This document shows, piece after piece, positions 1 through 5,410 of a DNA stretch of 5,410 nt. Below the pieces are notes generated by a model. That model worked only from the letters and a program-made list of their open reading frames with translations, was not told where the DNA came from and ran no database searches. The translations under genes were made by a program, and so were the position numbers. Position 1 is the first letter of the stretch. The number at the start of each line of letters is the position of its first letter. Location: assembly GCA_030609125.1 (NCBI GenBank), contig JAUWCW010000162.1, positions 1-5,410 of the forward strand, in the 5' to 3' direction. This stretch comes from JAUWCW01 sp030609125 [NCBI: Candidatus Rokuibacteriota bacterium] (lineage in GTDB: Bacteria; JAUVQV01).

Positions 1-1507
1 TCTTCACCTTCTGCACGTACTCGGCGGCGTACTTGCCGGCCCGGCGGCCGAAGACGTTGTAGTCCAGCACCGAGTTGCCCATGAGACGGTTGCGGCCGTG
101 GAGCCCGCCGGAGGCCTCCCCGGCGACGAAGAGGCCCGGGATGTTCGTTTCGCATTTCGCGCTTATCTCGACCCCCCCGTTCTGGTAGTGCAGGGTGGGG
201 TAGATGAGCATCGGCTCCTGCGTGATGTCGATGCCGTACCGGATGAACTGGCGGTACATGGCGGGGAAGTGCCGTCGCGTGTACCCCTCGCCCTGGATCA
301 TGTCGATGATGGGAGAATCGAGCCACACGCCGACGCGCCCGGAGGGGGTCTCGATGCCGTTGCAGTTCTGCACGCACTCGCGGATGATGGCGGCCCCCTC
401 CACGTCCCGGGGCTCACGCGGGAAGACGAAGAGCTCCCCGGACTTGTTCACGGGCTGGCCGCCGGCGCCCCGGATCCCCTCGGTGACGAGAAAGCCCGCG
501 ATCTGCTCCGGGAAGGCGGCGCCGGTGGGGTGGTACTGGACCGAGTCCATGAACATCAGGTTCGCGCCCGCCCGGTAGGCCATGACGAGGCCGTCGCCGG
601 TGGCGCCGTAGTGATTCGTGGTGGCGAAGCTGCGGATGTGCAGGCGCCCGTAGCCGCCGGTGGCGATGAGGGTGGCCTTGGCCTTGACGATGAAGTATTC
701 CTCCGTCTCGAGGTTGTAGAGCACGGCCCCCGCGCAGCGTCCCTTGTCGTCGAGGATCAGCTCGACGGCGGGCATGAAGTCCATGACCCGAACCATGTCG
801 GGGTGGTTCCGCACCTCGTCCATGAGGGTCCGCATGATGATCATGCCCGTGTAGTCCCGGGAGGAGAGCATCCTCTTGCGTGAGGTGCCCCCGCCGTGCA
901 GGACCTTGAGCTTGTTGCCTTCCACCTTGTCCCAGATCACGCCCAGATCCTCGAGCCACTTGACGACCTCCGGGCCATCCTCGGTGAGGGCCCGCATCAG
1001 CTCCGGCTTGTTCTCGAAGTGTCCGCCGCCCATGGCGTCCAGGTAGTGGCGGGTGGGGGAGTCGGTCTCGCTCACCGCCGCCTGCATGCCGCCCTGGGAC
1101 ATCATGGAGTTGGCGTCGCCCATGCGCAGCTTGGTGGCGATGATGGACTTGACGCCGTTCTGAAGGGCGATGATGGACGCTGCCGCCCCGGCCCCGCCGC
1201 CGCCGACGATGAGAAGCTCCGTCTCGAAGTCGGGTTTGGTGAGATCGAACAACTTCGGCGAGATCCGGGAGTGGGACTCGAGCATCTCCGCCACCTCGGT
1301 GGTGAGCATCTCCCCCTTGTTGGGCCCCACGCGGACCTTGCGCTGGGCCCCTTTCTGGAAGTCGGGGTGAAACCCGTCCAGCACGTCCTTGCGCTCCCGT
1401 GCGTCCATGAGGGGGTAGACGGGCTTGCCGGTCCGGGCGAGCTCGAACCTCTCGCCCCTGGTCCGGGCGACCTTCTCTAAAGACTCGTTCATGTATTCCG
1501 GATACAT
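1..1507 (-). CDS. FrdA/SdhA-like FAD flavoprotein, soluble fumarate reductase / succinate dehydrogenase type (3' end outside window)
   Basis: 502 codons are visible without a stop, and the frame runs off at position 1. The product should interconvert fumarate and succinate, or a close analogue. An extension of about 95 residues precedes the FAD domain, which opens with LLIVGGGGAG at residues 98-107. Catalytic-site equivalents of E. coli FrdA/SdhA are kept: H326 in QYHPTG, T342-E343, R367 in PRD (the proton-shuttle arginine position), H440 in PTLHY and R474 in NRLMGN. The second FAD segment LFVAGEASGG is at 459-468. The position of the covalent-FAD histidine is asparagine (N133, five residues before QGG), so FAD is probably non-covalent, as in NadB and soluble fumarate reductases. 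RGEGG of the family reads RGAGG (346-350). Whether the usual C-terminal helical domain follows cannot be seen. L-aspartate oxidase is less likely given the FrdB-like neighbour. Confidence 0.9.
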   Translation of the reverse strand, partial: MYPEYMNESLEKVARTRGERFELARTGKPVYPLMDARERKDVLDGFHPDFQKGAQRKVRVGPNKGEMLTTEVAEMLESHSRISPKLFDLTKPDFETELLIVGGGGAGAAASIIALQNGVKSIIATKLRMGDANSMMSQGGMQAAVSETDSPTRHYLDAMGGGHFENKPELMRALTEDGPEVVKWLEDLGVIWDKVEGNKLKVLHGGGTSRKRMLSSRDYTGMIIMRTLMDEVRNHPDMVRVMDFMPAVELILDDKGRCAGAVLYNLETEEYFIVKAKATLIATGGYGRLHIRSFATTNHYGATGDGLVMAYRAGANLMFMDSVQYHPTGAAFPEQIAGFLVTEGIRGAGGQPVNKSGELFVFPREPRDVEGAAIIRECVQNCNGIETPSGRVGVWLDSPIIDMIQGEGYTRRHFPAMYRQFIRYGIDITQEPMLIYPTLHYQNGGVEISAKCETNIPGLFVAGEASGGLHGRNRLMGNSVLDYNVFGRRAGKYAAEYVQKVK

Positions 1508-1513
1508 AACCTG

Positions 1514-1520
1514 CTCCTTT
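1514..1520 (-). promoter_or_regulatory. Shine-Dalgarno sequence of the FrdA-like gene
   Basis: AAAGGAG lies 6 bases before the ATG at 1507. It is a strong independent ribosome site, which matters because this gene is separated from its upstream neighbour and cannot rely on overlap coupling. Confidence 0.8.
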
Positions 1521-1525
1521 CACGG

Positions 1526-1630
1526 GATTCTTTTGCTCCCTGACTGCGTTGCGCCCTCGTTCGCTTGTGCGGCGTTCGGACGTACGCCTCCGCGCTCACA
1601 TCGGGCGACGCCTTGTCAGGAACCAAAATC
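1526..1630. repeat. Large imperfect dyad (palindromic intergenic element) between the FrdB-like and FrdA-like genes
   Basis: Nested complementary arms can be paired by eye around a centre near 1579: TTTTG 1531-1535 with CAAAA 1624-1628; CCTGAC 1539-1544 with GTCAGG 1615-1620; CGT 1548-1550 with ACG 1608-1610; GCCC 1553-1556 with GGGC 1603-1606; TGTG 1566-1569 with CACA 1597-1600; and GGCGT 1571-1575 with ACGCC 1584-1588. The element fills most of the only sizeable gap in the operon. As RNA it could fold into a long interrupted hairpin. No U-tract follows a compact stem, so it does not look like a simple intrinsic terminator. It may be a dispersed intergenic repeat of the REP type; copy number cannot be judged from one window. 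Confidence 0.6.
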
Positions 1631-1668
1631 TCTCCCGCGAATGTTTCGTTATCGGTGCTTGTTTTCAT

Positions 1669-2448
1669 CTATGATTCCATGTCCCGGTCGTAGTAGAGCT
1701 TCGACAGGGCCTCTTTCTCCGCCGTCATCAGCTTTTTGTACTCACGGTCGTATTTGCCTCTTTTCATTTCCCGGATGCGTTTTTCGAGGTGTTCACTCTT
1801 CGGCGCCAGGTACTTGCCGTAGAGGCGCTTGCCGAGGAGGGCGACGTTCATCTGGACGATCTCGGCGGGACAGCGGATGGCGCAGAGGCCGCAGGCGAGG
1901 CAGTCGAAAGAGATGTCCATGAGGGCCTCCATGTCGCCCCGCTTGGCGGCCTGGATGTAGTCCATGACCTCCAGCTCCTGGGGACAGGCCTTGGAGCAGG
2001 TGTTGCAGGCCACGCAGCGGAAGACCTCCGGGTAGAATTTCTGTATCGTCGCCACGTCGGCGGTGATCCGGTCCATGTCGTAGATCGCCTTGTGGGCCGG
2101 GTGCGCGGGGATCTGGGTCAGCCACATGCCCTCGGCCACCATGGTGGTGCAGGCCAGGCCGGTGTAGATTTTGTAGTCCCCCGGCATCCGGTAGATCGTC
2201 GCGCAGGCCCCGCAGTAGCCTTCGCGGCAGCCCGCGCCCCTCTTGATCTGGTAGCCCGCGTACTCGATGGCGCCCATGATGGTGGCCTCTTCCGGGACCT
2301 TGTAGCCCGAGCCCATGATGTAGATAGTGACGAAGTTCTCCCCGTGGGTCGGGATCTCGCAGACTTCGGCCTGCTTTTTCACTTTCGGCGCGGTCTTTTT
2401 CGGGGCCTTCTTCGCCGGCCTCTTCGTTGAAGCTTTCTTTGCTGTCAT
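1669..2448 (-). CDS. Fumarate reductase / succinate dehydrogenase-type iron-sulfur protein (FrdB/TfrB N-domain-like)
   Basis: This 259-residue protein is the likely electron-transfer partner of the FrdA-like flavoprotein downstream. Residues 1-27 form a tail with ten lysines and one arginine, plus Ala/Pro. Residues about 38-110 are a plant-ferredoxin-like domain with [2Fe-2S] ligands C74-x4-C79-x2-C82-x17-C100. Residues about 140-200 carry C145-x2-C148-x2-C151-x3-C155-P and C183-x2-C186-x2-C189-x3-C193-P, a pattern for two [4Fe-4S] clusters rather than the [4Fe-4S]+[3Fe-4S] pair of quinone-linked SdhB. The C-terminal 60 residues are charged and probably helical. The HdrB-like cysteine-rich (CCG) domain found in methanogen TfrB is absent. 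The start is set by GAGGAGG upstream. The stop TAG is followed by the 161-base gap holding the dyad. Close alternatives are other 2Fe-2S/4Fe-4S partners of FrdA-like flavoproteins. Confidence 0.87.
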   Translation of the reverse strand: MTAKKASTKRPAKKAPKKTAPKVKKQAEVCEIPTHGENFVTIYIMGSGYKVPEEATIMGAIEYAGYQIKRGAGCREGYCGACATIYRMPGDYKIYTGLACTTMVAEGMWLTQIPAHPAHKAIYDMDRITADVATIQKFYPEVFRCVACNTCSKACPQELEVMDYIQAAKRGDMEALMDISFDCLACGLCAIRCPAEIVQMNVALLGKRLYGKYLAPKSEHLEKRIREMKRGKYDREYKKLMTAEKEALSKLYYDRDMES

Positions 2449-2460
2449 GGCGCTCTCTCT

Positions 2461-2467
2461 CCTCCTC
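2461..2467 (-). promoter_or_regulatory. Shine-Dalgarno sequence of the FrdB-like gene
   Basis: GAGGAGG overlaps the TGA stop of the HydG-like gene (2468-2466) and lies 12 bases before the ATG at 2448. The purine run continues closer to the start (GGAG ending at 2459). It fixes the start at 2448 and includes the lysine-rich tail in the protein, since no comparable site precedes the in-frame GTG about 22 codons later. Confidence 0.55.
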
Positions 2468-3290
2468 AATACTCCTGAGGCAGTTTCTTCAGCTCGGCCC
2501 AGGAATAGACGGGGCCGTGGATGCAGACGTAGTGCTTGCCGATGTTGCAGCGGCCGCATTTGCCGATGCCGCACTTCATCTTGTTTTCAACGGTGGTGTA
2601 GATCTGCTCGTCTTCGAAGCCGAGCTGCTTCAGGTTGGCTATGACGAACTTGATCATGATCGGGGGGCCGCAGGTGACGGCGATGGTGTTCTCCGGCGAC
2701 GGCTTCTTGTCCAGCACGTTGGCGGGGACGAAGCCGACGAAGCCGTCCCACCCCTCCTCCTCGGAGTCGACCGAGAGGTGAAGGTTCATTTTTCCCTTGA
2801 GCTCTTCGAGTTCCTCGCTGTAGACGAGGTCGGCGGAGGTCCGGGAGCCGTAGAAGAGCGACAGCTCCCCGTAGTCTTCCCGGTTGCCCAGGGCGGTGTG
2901 GAGGACGGACCAGACCGGGGCGATGCCGATGCCGCCGCCGATGATGATCAGGTTCTTCCCCTTCCACTCCTCCACGGGGAAGGTGTTTCCGTAGGGGCCC
3001 CTGATGCCGATCACGTCCCCCTCCTTCAGCTCGTGCAGCTCCGTCGTCACCCTTCCGGTCTTGAGGATGGAAAACTGCAGGTAGTCCTTCTGCAGGGGGG
3101 ACGAGGAGATGGATATCATGGACTCGCCCGTGCCGAAGACGGAGAGCATGGCGCACTGTCCGCACTGGTGGGAGAAGCCGTTGTCGCCGACGAACCGCAT
3201 CCTGAAGGTCTTGATGGGCCGGACGCCGCCGACCTCCTCCTTGATGGAGACGATCTTTGCCAGCTTGGGCAGATAGGCGTTAGGACTCAT
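2466..3290 (-). CDS. FAD/NAD(P)-binding oxidoreductase, HydG/PyrK-like electron-transfer subunit (FlxA-type)
   Basis: This 274-residue protein belongs to the ferredoxin-NADP reductase superfamily, in the branch containing sulfhydrogenase gamma (HydG), dihydroorotate dehydrogenase electron-transfer subunit (PyrK) and FlxA. It should exchange electrons between NAD(P)H, FAD and Fe-S partners in the cytoplasm. Domains in order: FAD-binding barrel (about residues 8-105) with SISSSP at 60-65 and RGPYG at 97-101; nucleotide-binding domain with GGGIGIAP at 118-125 and CGPPIM at 207-212; C-terminal [2Fe-2S] site C240-x4-C245-x2-C248-x7-C256. Length fits the family. The usual PGQF-like segment before the flavin site reads CGQC (43-46). 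The gene overlaps the HydB/AsrA-like gene by 11 bases and ends 17 bases before the FrdB-like gene, whose ribosome site covers its TGA. NADH versus NADPH preference cannot be read reliably. Confidence 0.9.
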   Translation of the reverse strand: MSPNAYLPKLAKIVSIKEEVGGVRPIKTFRMRFVGDNGFSHQCGQCAMLSVFGTGESMISISSSPLQKDYLQFSILKTGRVTTELHELKEGDVIGIRGPYGNTFPVEEWKGKNLIIIGGGIGIAPVWSVLHTALGNREDYGELSLFYGSRTSADLVYSEELEELKGKMNLHLSVDSEEEGWDGFVGFVPANVLDKKPSPENTIAVTCGPPIMIKFVIANLKQLGFEDEQIYTTVENKMKCGIGKCGRCNIGKHYVCIHGPVYSWAELKKLPQEY

Positions 3291-4320
3291 GGTCGTGGAC
3301 CTCTTCGAGGATGTCGATGATGTCAATGCTCACGGGACAGCGCGATATGCAACGGCCGCAGCCCGTGCACTGGAATTCTCCGTGGTGCTCCACGAAGTAC
3401 TGGAACTTGTGGTTCAGCCGCTGCCGCAGACGCGACGCCCGGTCGGGGCGGGGATTGTGGCCTGAGGAGTGCATGGTGAAGTCCGGGAACTGGCAGGTGT
3501 CCCAGGTGCGGATCCTCCTGCCCTTCGGCGGCGACGCGCTGGTGAGCTCGTCGGTGAGATCGAAGCAGTGGCAGGCGGGGCAGAGGTAGGTGCAGATCCC
3601 GCAGCGGATGCACCCCAGCGCCTTCTCGTCCCAGAAGGGGCTCTCGAACATCTTCTTGAGCTTGCCCGGAAGCTGGTTCGCGTCCCTCAGGGACCGTTCG
3701 ATTCTCTGCTCGGAGTCGGTGAAAGCCGTGGCCAGCTCCCGCCGGTCCCGGTCCGTCGGCTTGGTGAAGAGATTCTTCGCCTTGCTCAGAAGCTTCTCCC
3801 CCTTCTCCGTCACGGCGTCGACGACGTACCGGTCGCCGAGGTCGGTCATGAGAATATCGAGACCCTCCCGGGAGTGCGGCGAACCGCCGACGCTGGGGCA
3901 GAAGCAGTTGGGGGAGGGGGGGTGATTGCAGGTCAGCCCCACGAGGACCGTCTTCTCCCGGCGTGCCTGATAGTAGGGGTCGTTGATCGTGCCGCCGAAG
4001 ACAATGTCCGTCAGCGTGGCGGCCCTGGCGTCACAGGGCCGGACCCCGAAGATGACCCGGTCCTTCTTCCCGGGCAGGGTCTCGGTGAGCGTCGGCTGTC
4101 CCTCCTCGTCGGTATCGAACTCGAAGAGTGTCTCCGTCTGGGGGAAGATGATCTTCTTGGGGGCCTGCACGGTGTTCGGGTACGAGGGGCTGATCTCTTT
4201 CAGATCCTCCACGGCCTCGTAGATCCAGACTCCGTCCTTTTCCACCGGCGCGTAGACCTCGAACCCCGCGAGTTTTTTCACCCACGGCGCGAATGATTTT
4301 TTGGGCAGGATCTTTTCCAT
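3280..4320 (-). CDS. 4Fe-4S dicluster protein, HydB/AsrA-like (sulfhydrogenase beta / anaerobic sulfite reductase A family; FlxC/FlxB-type)
   Basis: This 346-residue protein resembles the beta subunit of archaeal sulfhydrogenase and subunit A of anaerobic sulfite reductase, which pass electrons between a HydG-like NAD(P)H-flavin subunit and the catalytic partner. Diagnostic features are GVRPCDARA (residues 92-100), a C131...C139-x-C141 segment followed by a glycine-rich stretch, the motif C237-x2-C240-x2-C243-x3-C247-P with C250 and C252 directly after it, and C318-x2-C321-x2-C324-x3-C328-P near the C-terminus. No membrane or export signal is seen. The start is ATG 4320, with ATG 4326 as an alternative giving two more residues. 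Its last codons overlap the start of the HydG-like gene by 11 bases, which indicates a joint complex with that subunit. No sulfite reductase or hydrogenase catalytic subunit is visible in the window, so those activities should not be assigned. Confidence 0.88.
   Translation of the reverse strand: MEKILPKKSFAPWVKKLAGFEVYAPVEKDGVWIYEAVEDLKEISPSYPNTVQAPKKIIFPQTETLFEFDTDEEGQPTLTETLPGKKDRVIFGVRPCDARAATLTDIVFGGTINDPYYQARREKTVLVGLTCNHPPSPNCFCPSVGGSPHSREGLDILMTDLGDRYVVDAVTEKGEKLLSKAKNLFTKPTDRDRRELATAFTDSEQRIERSLRDANQLPGKLKKMFESPFWDEKALGCIRCGICTYLCPACHCFDLTDELTSASPPKGRRIRTWDTCQFPDFTMHSSGHNPRPDRASRLRQRLNHKFQYFVEHHGEFQCTGCGRCISRCPVSIDIIDILEEVHDHES
3299..3304 (-). promoter_or_regulatory. Shine-Dalgarno sequence of the HydG-like gene
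   Basis: AGAGGT sits 8 bases before the ATG at 3290, inside the end of the preceding gene. It supports 3290 rather than the in-frame ATG at 3326, which would give a 47-base overlap and a low-complexity Ser/Thr-rich leader not expected in the family. Confidence 0.6.
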
Positions 4321-4325
4321 TGTCA

Positions 4326-5357
4326 TCACCTGATGAAGTCGCCCGGATCGTCGTCGCGGAAGCTGGCGACCAGCGAGTCGCCCTCGGCGTCGAAGCCGGC
4401 GTCGTAGCCGAAGAGTTCCTTGGCGGCCTTTTCGAGCTTCTTGTTGAGGAAACGAACCGGGATGTCGAGGGGGCAGACCCGCTGGCACTCGCCGCAGTCG
4501 ATGCAGCGCCCGGCGAGATGTATGGCCCGGACGTAGTGGTAGCCGAAATTCTCCGAGGAGGCGGAGGATCTCTCGATCCACTTTATCCGGTCCGCCTTCT
4601 CCTCGGCGCTGGTGCCGGCGTCGACGGCGAAGTTGATGGTGTCCACCACGCACTCGTCGCAGAAGCACATGGGGCATACGGAGCGGCAGGCGTAGCAGCG
4701 GATGCAGCGCCCGATCTGCTCCTCCCAGAAGGCCCGGCGCTCGGCGGCGGACATCTTCTCGATCTTCTCCAGCGAACCGTAGGGCTTCTCGGGGCTGCGC
4801 TCGATCTTTTCACCCTCCAGGAAGTCGGAGACCACGGGGTAGCTTGCCCTGCACTCGACGCAGCGCTCGGCGAGAAGCTCGACGGCGGGAACGGTCGTTC
4901 TCTTTCCCTCCGACTCGACGCTGAAGGCGTCCTCGCCCTCGCGCTCGATGCCGTCCACCTTTCTCCCCTTGAATCTGCGGGCCACCTTCTTCTCGTCGGC
5001 GACGCCCGATCTTTCGCAGGAAACACCTATCAGGTAGACATCGCCGCGGTCGATGAACCTCTCCTGCAGCAGCACGTTCACCGCGCGGCTGTCGCAGCCC
5101 TTGACGACGATGGCCACGGGGCGGCTGTCGGGGTCTTTTTCCCGTCCCTTCCGCCGCTTTTCGTCGCGGACGAACCGGACCAGGTTGTGGACGCAGGTCG
5201 GGTCCCAGATGAGCCGCTCCGCGTCTTCGGGCTTCACGGCGAAGAAGGGTGCGGCGGTGAGACCGTCCGGTCCCCGCCGGTAGCCGACGACGTACTTCAC
5301 CGCGCCCTCTTCGAGGAGGCGTCGCGCCTCCCGGCGGATTCTATCGACCTGTGACAT
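4326..5357 (-). CDS. Iron-sulfur electron-transfer subunit, sulfhydrogenase-beta / F420-hydrogenase-beta-like (FlxB/FlxC-type)
   Basis: This 343-residue soluble protein probably relays electrons between a flavin subunit and other Fe-S partners. The N-terminal half resembles the FrhB/HydB fold: KGCDSRA at residues 86-92, GVSC at 111-114 and a C-x2-C pair at C166/C169. The C-terminal half holds two ferredoxin-type [4Fe-4S] motifs: C218-x2-C221-x2-C224-x3-C228-P and C285-x2-C288-x2-C291-x3-C295-P. Extra cysteines C231, C233 and C236 follow the first motif directly. No signal peptide or membrane segment is visible. The ATG at 5357 is chosen over the GTG at 5360 for its Shine-Dalgarno spacing. The stop overlaps an ATG of the next gene (TGATG at 4328-4324). 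The next gene is a paralogue of similar length. Such pairs sit beside HydG-like flavoproteins in FlxABCD/Hdr clusters; which of FlxB or FlxC this is cannot be settled here. Confidence 0.85.
   Translation of the reverse strand: MSQVDRIRREARRLLEEGAVKYVVGYRRGPDGLTAAPFFAVKPEDAERLIWDPTCVHNLVRFVRDEKRRKGREKDPDSRPVAIVVKGCDSRAVNVLLQERFIDRGDVYLIGVSCERSGVADEKKVARRFKGRKVDGIEREGEDAFSVESEGKRTTVPAVELLAERCVECRASYPVVSDFLEGEKIERSPEKPYGSLEKIEKMSAAERRAFWEEQIGRCIRCYACRSVCPMCFCDECVVDTINFAVDAGTSAEEKADRIKWIERSSASSENFGYHYVRAIHLAGRCIDCGECQRVCPLDIPVRFLNKKLEKAAKELFGYDAGFDAEGDSLVASFRDDDPGDFIR
4327..4331 (-). promoter_or_regulatory. Shine-Dalgarno sequence deciding the start of the HydB/AsrA-like gene
   Basis: AGGTG lies 6 bases before the ATG at 4320. 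It almost touches the alternative in-frame ATG at 4326, so it favours 4320 (MEKIL...) over 4326 (MTMEKIL...). The 4326 ATG could still be used by termination-reinitiation at the TGATG overlap. Confidence 0.5.
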
Positions 5358-5410
5358 CACGCTTCCCTCCTGAGCATCTGCTGCTGTCCCAGGGGTCTGA
5401 GGGTGTCGAC
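5357..5410 (-). CDS. C-terminal end of an unidentified upstream gene (partial)
   Basis: Only the last 17 codons and a TGA stop (5359-5357) of this gene are inside the window. The visible tail reads VDTLRPLGQQQMLRREA and carries no diagnostic motif. Its stop shares one base with the ATG of the next gene (TGATG), and the next gene's Shine-Dalgarno sequence lies inside its last codons, so the two are translationally coupled and belong to one operon. By analogy with FlxABCD-HdrABC clusters this position would suit an MvhD/FlxD-type or HdrA-type subunit, but that is inferred from neighbours only. The frame is well supported by the coupling; the identity is not. Confidence 0.6.
   Translation of the reverse strand, partial: VDTLRPLGQQQMLRREA
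5366..5371 (-). promoter_or_regulatory. Shine-Dalgarno sequence of the 343-aa iron-sulfur protein
   Basis: A perfect AGGAGG sits 8 bases before the ATG at 5357 and 5 bases before an in-frame GTG at 5360. The spacing and the stronger codon favour the ATG. The site is embedded in the end of the upstream reading frame. Confidence 0.75.

Follow-up and report, generated by a model that had tools for sequence, protein, structure and literature searches.

A candidate soluble NAD(P)H-linked fumarate reductase in the distal half of a probable Hdr- and KOR-containing operon of a Rokuibacteriota bacterium

Gene clusters that combine Flx and Hdr subunits with a fumarate reductase, and a model of electron bifurcation to fumarate, are already published, as far as the accessible parts of three reports go (PMC6315080; PMC11636981; PMC7282089). 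Here, we analyse such a locus on a contig of 5,410 nucleotides (JAUWCW010000162.1, C75 in our set) from a Candidatus Rokuibacteriota genome (2.32 Mb, 376 contigs, 92% complete); this entire contig is the window in what follows, and both of its ends cut through an operon. On balance, we favour the reading that the window represents the distal part, about half, of an operon encoding a soluble fumarate reductase that depends on NAD(P)H and is linked to an Hdr-type bifurcating flavoprotein and to a 2-oxoglutarate:ferredoxin oxidoreductase (KOR).

The Hdr-Flx/KorABCD/tfrAB cluster of the Riftia and Escarpia symbionts and of Thioflavicoccus mobilis, which we likened to the window by its published descriptions, has the same gene set and the same proposed electron flow (PMC6315080; PMC11636981). 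Its korABCD, tfrAB and flxABCD-hdrABC genes were described as interspersed and a complex was suggested (PMC6315080), with KorABCD between HdrA and HdrBC and co-expressed as an operon (PMC11636981). That cluster is part of a reductive tricarboxylic acid (TCA) cycle cluster with ATP citrate lyase, whereas the genome of the window has a citrate synthase and the gene order in the window is that of Aminicenantes. The 'succinate operon' of Pseudoclostridium thermosuccinogenes, again compared by its description, consists of Flx-Hdr followed by a fumarate reductase, with a 2019 preprint cited for the bifurcation idea and a proposed ferredoxin coupling like the one considered here; it differs in having no KOR, as described, and in beginning with a fumarate hydratase (PMC7282089). 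The available text of PMC12887300 links Hdr-Flx to sulfite reduction, and that of PMC8671834 contains nothing bearing on an Hdr-Flx-Kor-Frd cluster. Neither a biochemical demonstration of bifurcating fumarate reduction nor a purified Flx-Hdr-Frd complex was found in the literature searched, which left subscription journals mostly outside. The FlxABCD-HdrABC of Desulfovibrio vulgaris, which shares the Flx and Hdr subunits, was reportedly described by Ramos and colleagues in 2015 as a complex without FrdAB, and a 2014 study by Meyer and colleagues is said, by its title, to concern fumarate and Hdr-Flox in D. alaskensis.

The window contains five genes, all on the minus strand and in one direction (5357-4326, 4326-3280, 3290-2466, 2448-1669 and 1507-2). 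The first and second overlap by 1 nt and the second and third by 11 nt, while the third, flxA, is separated from frdB by 17 nt, and frdB from frdA by 161 nt. Coordinates, Pfam and NCBIfam all bear out the original prediction, made from the letters and open reading frames of the window, that a Flx-type trio coupled by overlaps runs into a frdB-frdA pair. The conservation of this gene order in other genomes, which had been proposed as a check, was also found: the order recurs in many, so the arrangement is far beyond chance. We take the first three genes to be FlxC, FlxB and FlxA by family and position.

The flxC-like gene (4326-5357, minus strand) encodes an Fe-S protein of 343 amino acids with 4Fe-4S dicluster Pfam matches and two CxxCxxCxxxC motifs; the only solved relatives found are F420-dependent formate dehydrogenase beta subunits, which align over its C-terminal third, and it matched no HydB model at E 0.001. 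The flxB-like gene (3280-4326, minus strand) encodes an Fe-S protein of the HydB/AsrA family (348 amino acids; PF17179, 110 bits), with 200 and 191 bits against sulfhydrogenase beta models, for which the cut-offs are 690 and 750. Thus, of the 'two HydB-like' proteins first noted, the second keeps that description and the first is HydB-like in a loose sense only. The flxA-like gene (2466-3290, minus strand) encodes a FAD/NAD(P) subunit of the HydG/AsrB family with a 2Fe-2S domain (274 amino acids; PF00175 and PF10418); it scored 236 bits against PRK08345 (cut-off 395) and 195 and 182 bits against HydG (gamma) models (cut-offs 650 and 600), and its nearest solved chain is the sulfhydrogenase 1 gamma subunit 9nez_C (E 3.6e-56). 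The sulfhydrogenase SHI of Pyrococcus furiosus has HydB/HydG-type subunits in common with the window, with the scores here far under the cut-offs, and it differs in its hydrogenase subunit. The alternative that a hydrogenase or sulfite reductase subunit would complete a HydB/HydG module found no counterpart among the operon genes profiled in a relative, L042, where none of either kind was present.

At the upstream edge of the window we identified the 3' end of a mvhD/flxD gene (5357-5410, minus strand), of which 17 codons, VDTLRPLGQQQMLRREA, and the stop are present before the contig end cuts it. The last base of this frame (5410-5357) is the first base of flxC, and its local alignment with the MvhD of two relatives (L062 and L061) scored 57, the best of 200 shuffles reaching 39. 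In relatives, mvhD directly precedes flxC, in the same position as this tail. The search for HdrA and MvhD upstream, advised earlier, therefore had a positive outcome, since both lie directly upstream of the Flx genes in relatives and the window edge matches the end of MvhD.

To describe the operon beyond the window, species genomes were scanned by FrdB alignment and the best 80 of at least 519 relatives were kept, which is not a random sample; by record titles, these loci include Aminicenantes, Pseudomonadota, Marinimicrobia, Cloacimonadota, Eisenbacteria and Thermoplasmata. A full order of 13 genes, hdrC-hdrB-korD-korA-korB-korC-hdrA-mvhD-flxC-flxB-flxA-frdB-frdA, is present in 10 of the 80 (by title eight Aminicenantes, one Acidobacteriota and one Clostridiales), and three more (L047, L062 and L066) are one gene short of it, two of them through a locus or contig end. 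The Pseudomonadota loci show frdBA-hdrCB-kor-hdrA-mvhD-flxC, with frdBA distant from flxC and followed by hdrC; many of them stop at flxC, with flxB and flxA unseen there, except for L080, in which flxA is far upstream of frdBA. In Thermoplasmata the order is kor-hdrA-mvhD-hdrCB-frdBA. The same-strand set holds at least one Hdr or MvhD gene in 71 of the 80 loci, and the other nine have a contig end on that side or, in L048, a gap of 100 N; any kor gene is present in 46 loci and Flx genes in 40, another 19 being not judgeable for Flx. Profiles of L042 identified KOR, MvhD, an HdrB with two CCG domains and an HdrA whose closest model is HdrA2 (839 bits, cut-off 1100). Both five-cysteine CCG motifs are complete in 55 of 55 HdrB frames of about 265-330 amino acids, and in five loci (L093, L094, L100, L104 and L105) HdrB either ends no more than 24 nt from the FrdB frame or extends into it. 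Hdr looks like a more constant partner of FrdAB than Flx, which, from these gene sets, looks like a removable input. The original view of an NAD(P)H- and Hdr-linked FrdAB is upheld in part, by the HdrA-MvhD context, although it overlooked the KOR and HdrCB of the operon and the idea was already in print.

Some loci deserve separate mention. An apparent Hdr-less flxBA-frdBA variant, L048, from a 'complete chromosome', was rejected as such, having its 100 N (7763-7862) just upstream of flxB; elsewhere in the same genome a FlpD fragment adjoins a masked stretch. Next to that stretch with its FlpD remnant, the genome encodes a protein of 1087 amino acids (L171, 8098-11358, minus strand) in which an N-terminal 2Fe-2S domain (Fer2_4), resembling complex I subunit G by eye, is fused to an HdrA-like part (578 bits). 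A further hdrA-mvhD-flxC-flxB-flxA set occurs in Aminicenantes JdFR-80 (L172, 7013-12280, minus strand), apart from its Flx-less kor-hdr-frd cluster, and in a Cloacimonadota locus (L103) two kor gene sets are present upstream of hdrCBA-mvhD-frdBA. Two Marinimicrobia with a Frd cluster without Flx have FlxB and FlxA homologues that adjoin genes looking, by eye, like those of a membrane-bound hydrogenase or complex I-type enzyme (L174 and L175).

The proximal genes seem to have a counterpart in the genome of the window. Its contig C257 reads mdh-mdh-hdrC-hdrB and then the first 32 codons of korD at the contig end (score 129, shuffle maximum 58), the mdh genes being malate dehydrogenase-like, one of them profiled. 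The genes korD through mvhD occupy 5.2-5.3 kb in six relatives. C257 and the window would most simply be one operon split by an assembly gap, a joining inferred from the relatives because an hdrA of this type and a matching korABC were not found in this assembly; HdrA probably lies upstream in that gap, beside the KOR. The five PF01855 matches in the genome (on C283, C51, C331, C210 and C132) were taken as other 2-oxoacid oxidoreductases. Against the KorA of L042, C283, a fragment at a contig end, scored 291 bits, C51 213 and C331 150, and C210 and C132 gave no KorA match; KorA in the 80 loci scored from 228 to 887 bits (median 604), a range that includes the C283 score. C283 was nevertheless rejected as the continuation of C257, since a complete korD-like gene (35 bits) is already present on it. 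The single FlpD match of the genome, tried as the missing FlxD, lies within a QmoB-like gene that belongs to an apr-qmo-sat cluster and was rejected too.

The FrdA and FrdB proteins are separated from two other succinate dehydrogenase (SDH)-type enzymes of the same genome, a cytochrome b-linked SdhCAB on C181 and a second SdhAB on C51, both with the FAD-linking histidine; the latter is part of a KOR-aconitase-fumarase-SdhAB cluster, in which aconitase and fumarase were named by eye. The frdA-like gene (2-1507, minus strand; PF00890, 237 bits) has 502 codons without a stop, its 3' end being missing, and the proteins of relatives often have 555 residues. Its product is 72-79% identical to Aminicenantes and Pseudomonadota versions, 35% to Escherichia coli FrdA and 32% to the two SdhA of its own genome. 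The best-matching NCBIfam model is TfrA, with 335 bits for the window protein and 331.5 for the full-length L042 FrdA, both under the cut-off of 718. In a tree made with a quick method and having long outgroup branches, from which one unrelated protein of the same genome (C46) was omitted, the window protein is sister to 25 Pseudomonadota proteins (SH-aLRT 99). Residues were counted in the 67 of 80 loci with a FrdA frame above 1500 bp: equivalents of E. coli FrdA H232, E245, R287, H355 and R390, numbered and assigned roles as we take them to be in that enzyme, are retained in all 67, in agreement with the earlier statement that the catalytic residues are intact, and the position of the covalent-FAD histidine is an asparagine in all 67. 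The C-terminal domain PF02910 is absent from five of five FrdA relatives scanned and present in the three comparison proteins, E. coli FrdA and both SdhA of the genome. A structural model of FrdA (L042 as first row, 30 rows; predicted confidence, pLDDT, 83.5) has structural matches to flavocytochrome c and to quinol fumarate reductases that span residues ~75-534 (Z ~36), with the first 75 residues barely covered.

The frdB-like gene (1669-2448, minus strand; 259 amino acids) encodes an Fe-S subunit with a 2Fe-2S motif and two full 4Fe-4S motifs, the second being CxxCxxCxxxCP, and the Pfam scan found no CCG domain and no PF02754 match in it. Two full 4Fe-4S motifs are present in the FrdB of 80 of 83 relatives, the exceptions being L034, L092 and L095, while E. 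coli FrdB and both SdhB of the genome have Cx5Cx3CP without the inner cysteine. We assume that Cx5Cx3CP denotes a 3Fe-4S and CxxCxxCxxxCP a 4Fe-4S cluster; the 3Fe-4S motif of quinone-linked FrdB/SdhB is thus absent from the window. The methanogen TfrAB is likewise a soluble FrdA/FrdB-type pair with TfrA as the best NCBIfam model, but its TfrB has a fused CCG domain, whereas here FrdB has none and HdrB is a separate gene. The quinone-linked fumarate reductases and SDHs differ in the covalent-FAD histidine, PF02910 and Cx5Cx3CP, all absent here. For the absence of a membrane anchor, noted at first from the window, the window itself gives no basis, as it is a whole contig with frdA cut; the claim finds its support in relatives. 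A simple hydropathy scan covered the downstream side of the 62 loci, out of 80, that extend 1 kb or more beyond frdA; an open reading frame with at least three predicted transmembrane segments begins no more than 1.5 kb from frdA in one of them only (L104). Judged from their motifs, FrdA and FrdB fit a distinct soluble subfamily, a fumarate reductase not serving quinones. What is added here to the published clusters is the lack of the FAD-linking histidine, a predicted 4Fe-4S cluster replacing the 3Fe-4S one, the missing PF02910 domain, and the greater constancy of Hdr, compared with Flx, as a partner of FrdAB.

The window FrdB also has a Lys/Ala-rich N-terminal tail (window 2448-2374). Such tails were noticed in FrdB of some Aminicenantes (L048, and L173 from the genome of L059), and a Lys/Ala-rich C-terminus in the MvhD frames of L110 and L115 (370 and 264 amino acids), one of them an Eisenbacteria locus.

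Gene content, the order in relatives, the cofactor motifs and the separation from the two SDH-type enzymes are the observations from which we infer complex formation, bifurcation, the direction of the reaction, the choice of NADH or NADPH and the role of HdrB as relay or disulfide site. FlxA would accept hydride from NAD(P)H, and FlxB, FlxC and MvhD (FlxD) would relay the electrons to the HdrA-bound FAD. HdrA-MvhD may supply the bifurcating part, as the analogy with HdrA2 suggests (PMC5296606, in its accessible part). The high-potential branch would lead from HdrA through HdrC, HdrB, FrdB and FrdA, reducing fumarate to succinate, and the low-potential branch to ferredoxin or KorD, serving the reductive carboxylation of succinyl-CoA. 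The E0' values given in the available text of PMC5861303 are -320 mV for NAD and +33 mV for fumarate. We computed that NADH and fumarate would release ~68 kJ/mol. Ferredoxin potentials are between -420 and -500 mV, and reducing two ferredoxins with a second NADH was computed to cost ~19-35 kJ/mol. Bifurcation would be energetically favourable, because the release exceeds the cost.

Several results weigh against this reading. The operon-type HdrA and the matching KorABC were not found in the assembly of the genome itself. The expression pattern of tfrAB differs from that of the rest of the cluster, as reported in the accessible part of PMC11636981, which speaks against a fixed complex. Of the 40 relatives searched, just one genome belongs to the same order, and in it, at 95% completeness, a true FrdB homologue is missing (best E 1.1e-4); a close FrdB was present in two of the 40 only, both distant genomes; in one of these (L032), mvhD directly precedes frdB at the contig end. 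The absence of the FrdAB pair from relatives, named in the original prediction as a sign against it, is therefore seen in part, among these 40. The frdBA of L033 (44% FrdB identity) adjoins a protein with seven CxxCH haem motifs, with no Hdr gene matched within 14 kb, and that of L034 (28%) is remote, among unrelated genes; beyond their own frdBA and weak ferredoxin-type matches, neither locus matched a Hdr, Kor or Flx query. Other donors may thus serve FrdAB of this subfamily. A molybdopterin-type label for the neighbour protein in L033 was dropped, as it has no Pfam match at E 1e-6; a Fer4-like protein, recognised by eye, is also beside this frdBA (L033, 757-4609). Finally, the Hdr-Frd core lacks Flx in 21 of the 80 loci, of which eight have 2.5 kb or more of free sequence to either side and 13 lie closer to an end, so that donors besides NAD(P)H are possible. 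The 27 loci starting with frdBA never showed flxB or flxA, many of them ending at or inside flxC.

A stricter form of the proposal, which we put forward tentatively and hold to be less probable than the general one, is a single soluble supercomplex that unites KOR, Hdr, Flx and FrdAB and comprises ~13 different subunits. In it, HdrA would hand one branch directly to KorD, without free ferredoxin, and the other via HdrCB-FrdBA to fumarate, the non-cubane clusters of HdrB acting as a relay and not as a disulfide site. If so, fumarate reduction would pay for the neighbouring succinyl-CoA carboxylation.

It is rather unlikely, though the foremost of the competing explanations, that Flx-Hdr bifurcates to a disulfide (DsrC or a small thiol) and that FrdAB uses the resulting thiols or another donor, in the manner of a thiol:fumarate reductase. 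The complete CCG motifs of HdrB would suit this, and the route is possible because the genome encodes DsrC, DsrA-like and DsrKJOP-like proteins together with adenylylsulfate (APS) reductase, Qmo-like proteins and ATP sulfurylase. The Dsr region (L178, G000:C129:9000-18318) has DsrC by profile near a sulfite-reductase-type, DsrA-like protein, with DsrKJOP-looking proteins by eye, and APS reductase, Qmo-like and ATP sulfurylase genes are clustered on another contig (L039, G000:C205:1-8515). This gene set fits a dissimilatory sulfate reducer or a sulfur oxidiser. The authors of PMC11636981, in the text available, allow a DsrC route besides having seen tfrAB expressed apart from the cluster. On the other side, FrdB is devoid of the CCG domain that TfrB carries, the L042 HdrB matches positions 263-480 of the 488 of the TfrB model, and the linkage of frdBA with hdr genes takes several forms across phyla, which suggests a physical partnership.

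A plain NAD(P)H:fumarate reductase, in which FlxABC feeds FrdAB directly and ferredoxin is not reduced, seems unlikely, a little more so than the thiol route. It would agree with the adjoining of flxA and frdB in the window and in Aminicenantes-type clusters, and a 2008 study of Hydrogenobacter thermophilus reportedly described a soluble NADH-dependent fumarate reductase of five subunits. However, MvhD stands between hdrA and flxC in relatives, the frdBA of Pseudomonadota is far from flxC and next to hdrC, and the 21 clusters with Hdr and without Flx make Hdr the more constant partner.

The reverse direction, that is, succinate oxidation by confurcation with KOR-reduced ferredoxin in the oxidative TCA cycle of a sulfate reducer, we regard as improbable. 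The genome does have sulfate-reduction genes and a citrate synthase (a single PF00285 frame of 464 amino acids, nothing longer being found in that scan), and KOR would provide reduced ferredoxin; but the two other SDH-type enzymes have the FAD-linking histidine that this FrdA is missing, and the energetics favour the reductive direction. When E. coli fumarate reductase is mutated so that its FAD is no longer covalent, succinate oxidation suffers more than fumarate reduction does, which also counts against the reverse reaction.

A quinone-linked FrdAB with HdrB as an SdhE-type membrane anchor is very improbable: the L042 HdrB does match the SdhE model of methylmenaquinol:fumarate reductase (166 bits, cut-off 500), but it scores higher on the HdrB model (187 bits, cut-off 345), the 3Fe-4S motif of quinone-linked enzymes is absent, and HdrA, MvhD and HdrC would be left unexplained.

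Under the favoured reading, of a soluble fumarate reductase tied to Hdr and KOR, Hdr-type bifurcation would have in fumarate a strong acceptor of high potential, and its output would feed the next step of the reductive TCA cycle. This would explain how energy may be conserved by soluble fumarate reduction without a membrane. Given how widely the gene set occurs, what holds for a single cultivable member would be informative for many lineages that have no cultures.

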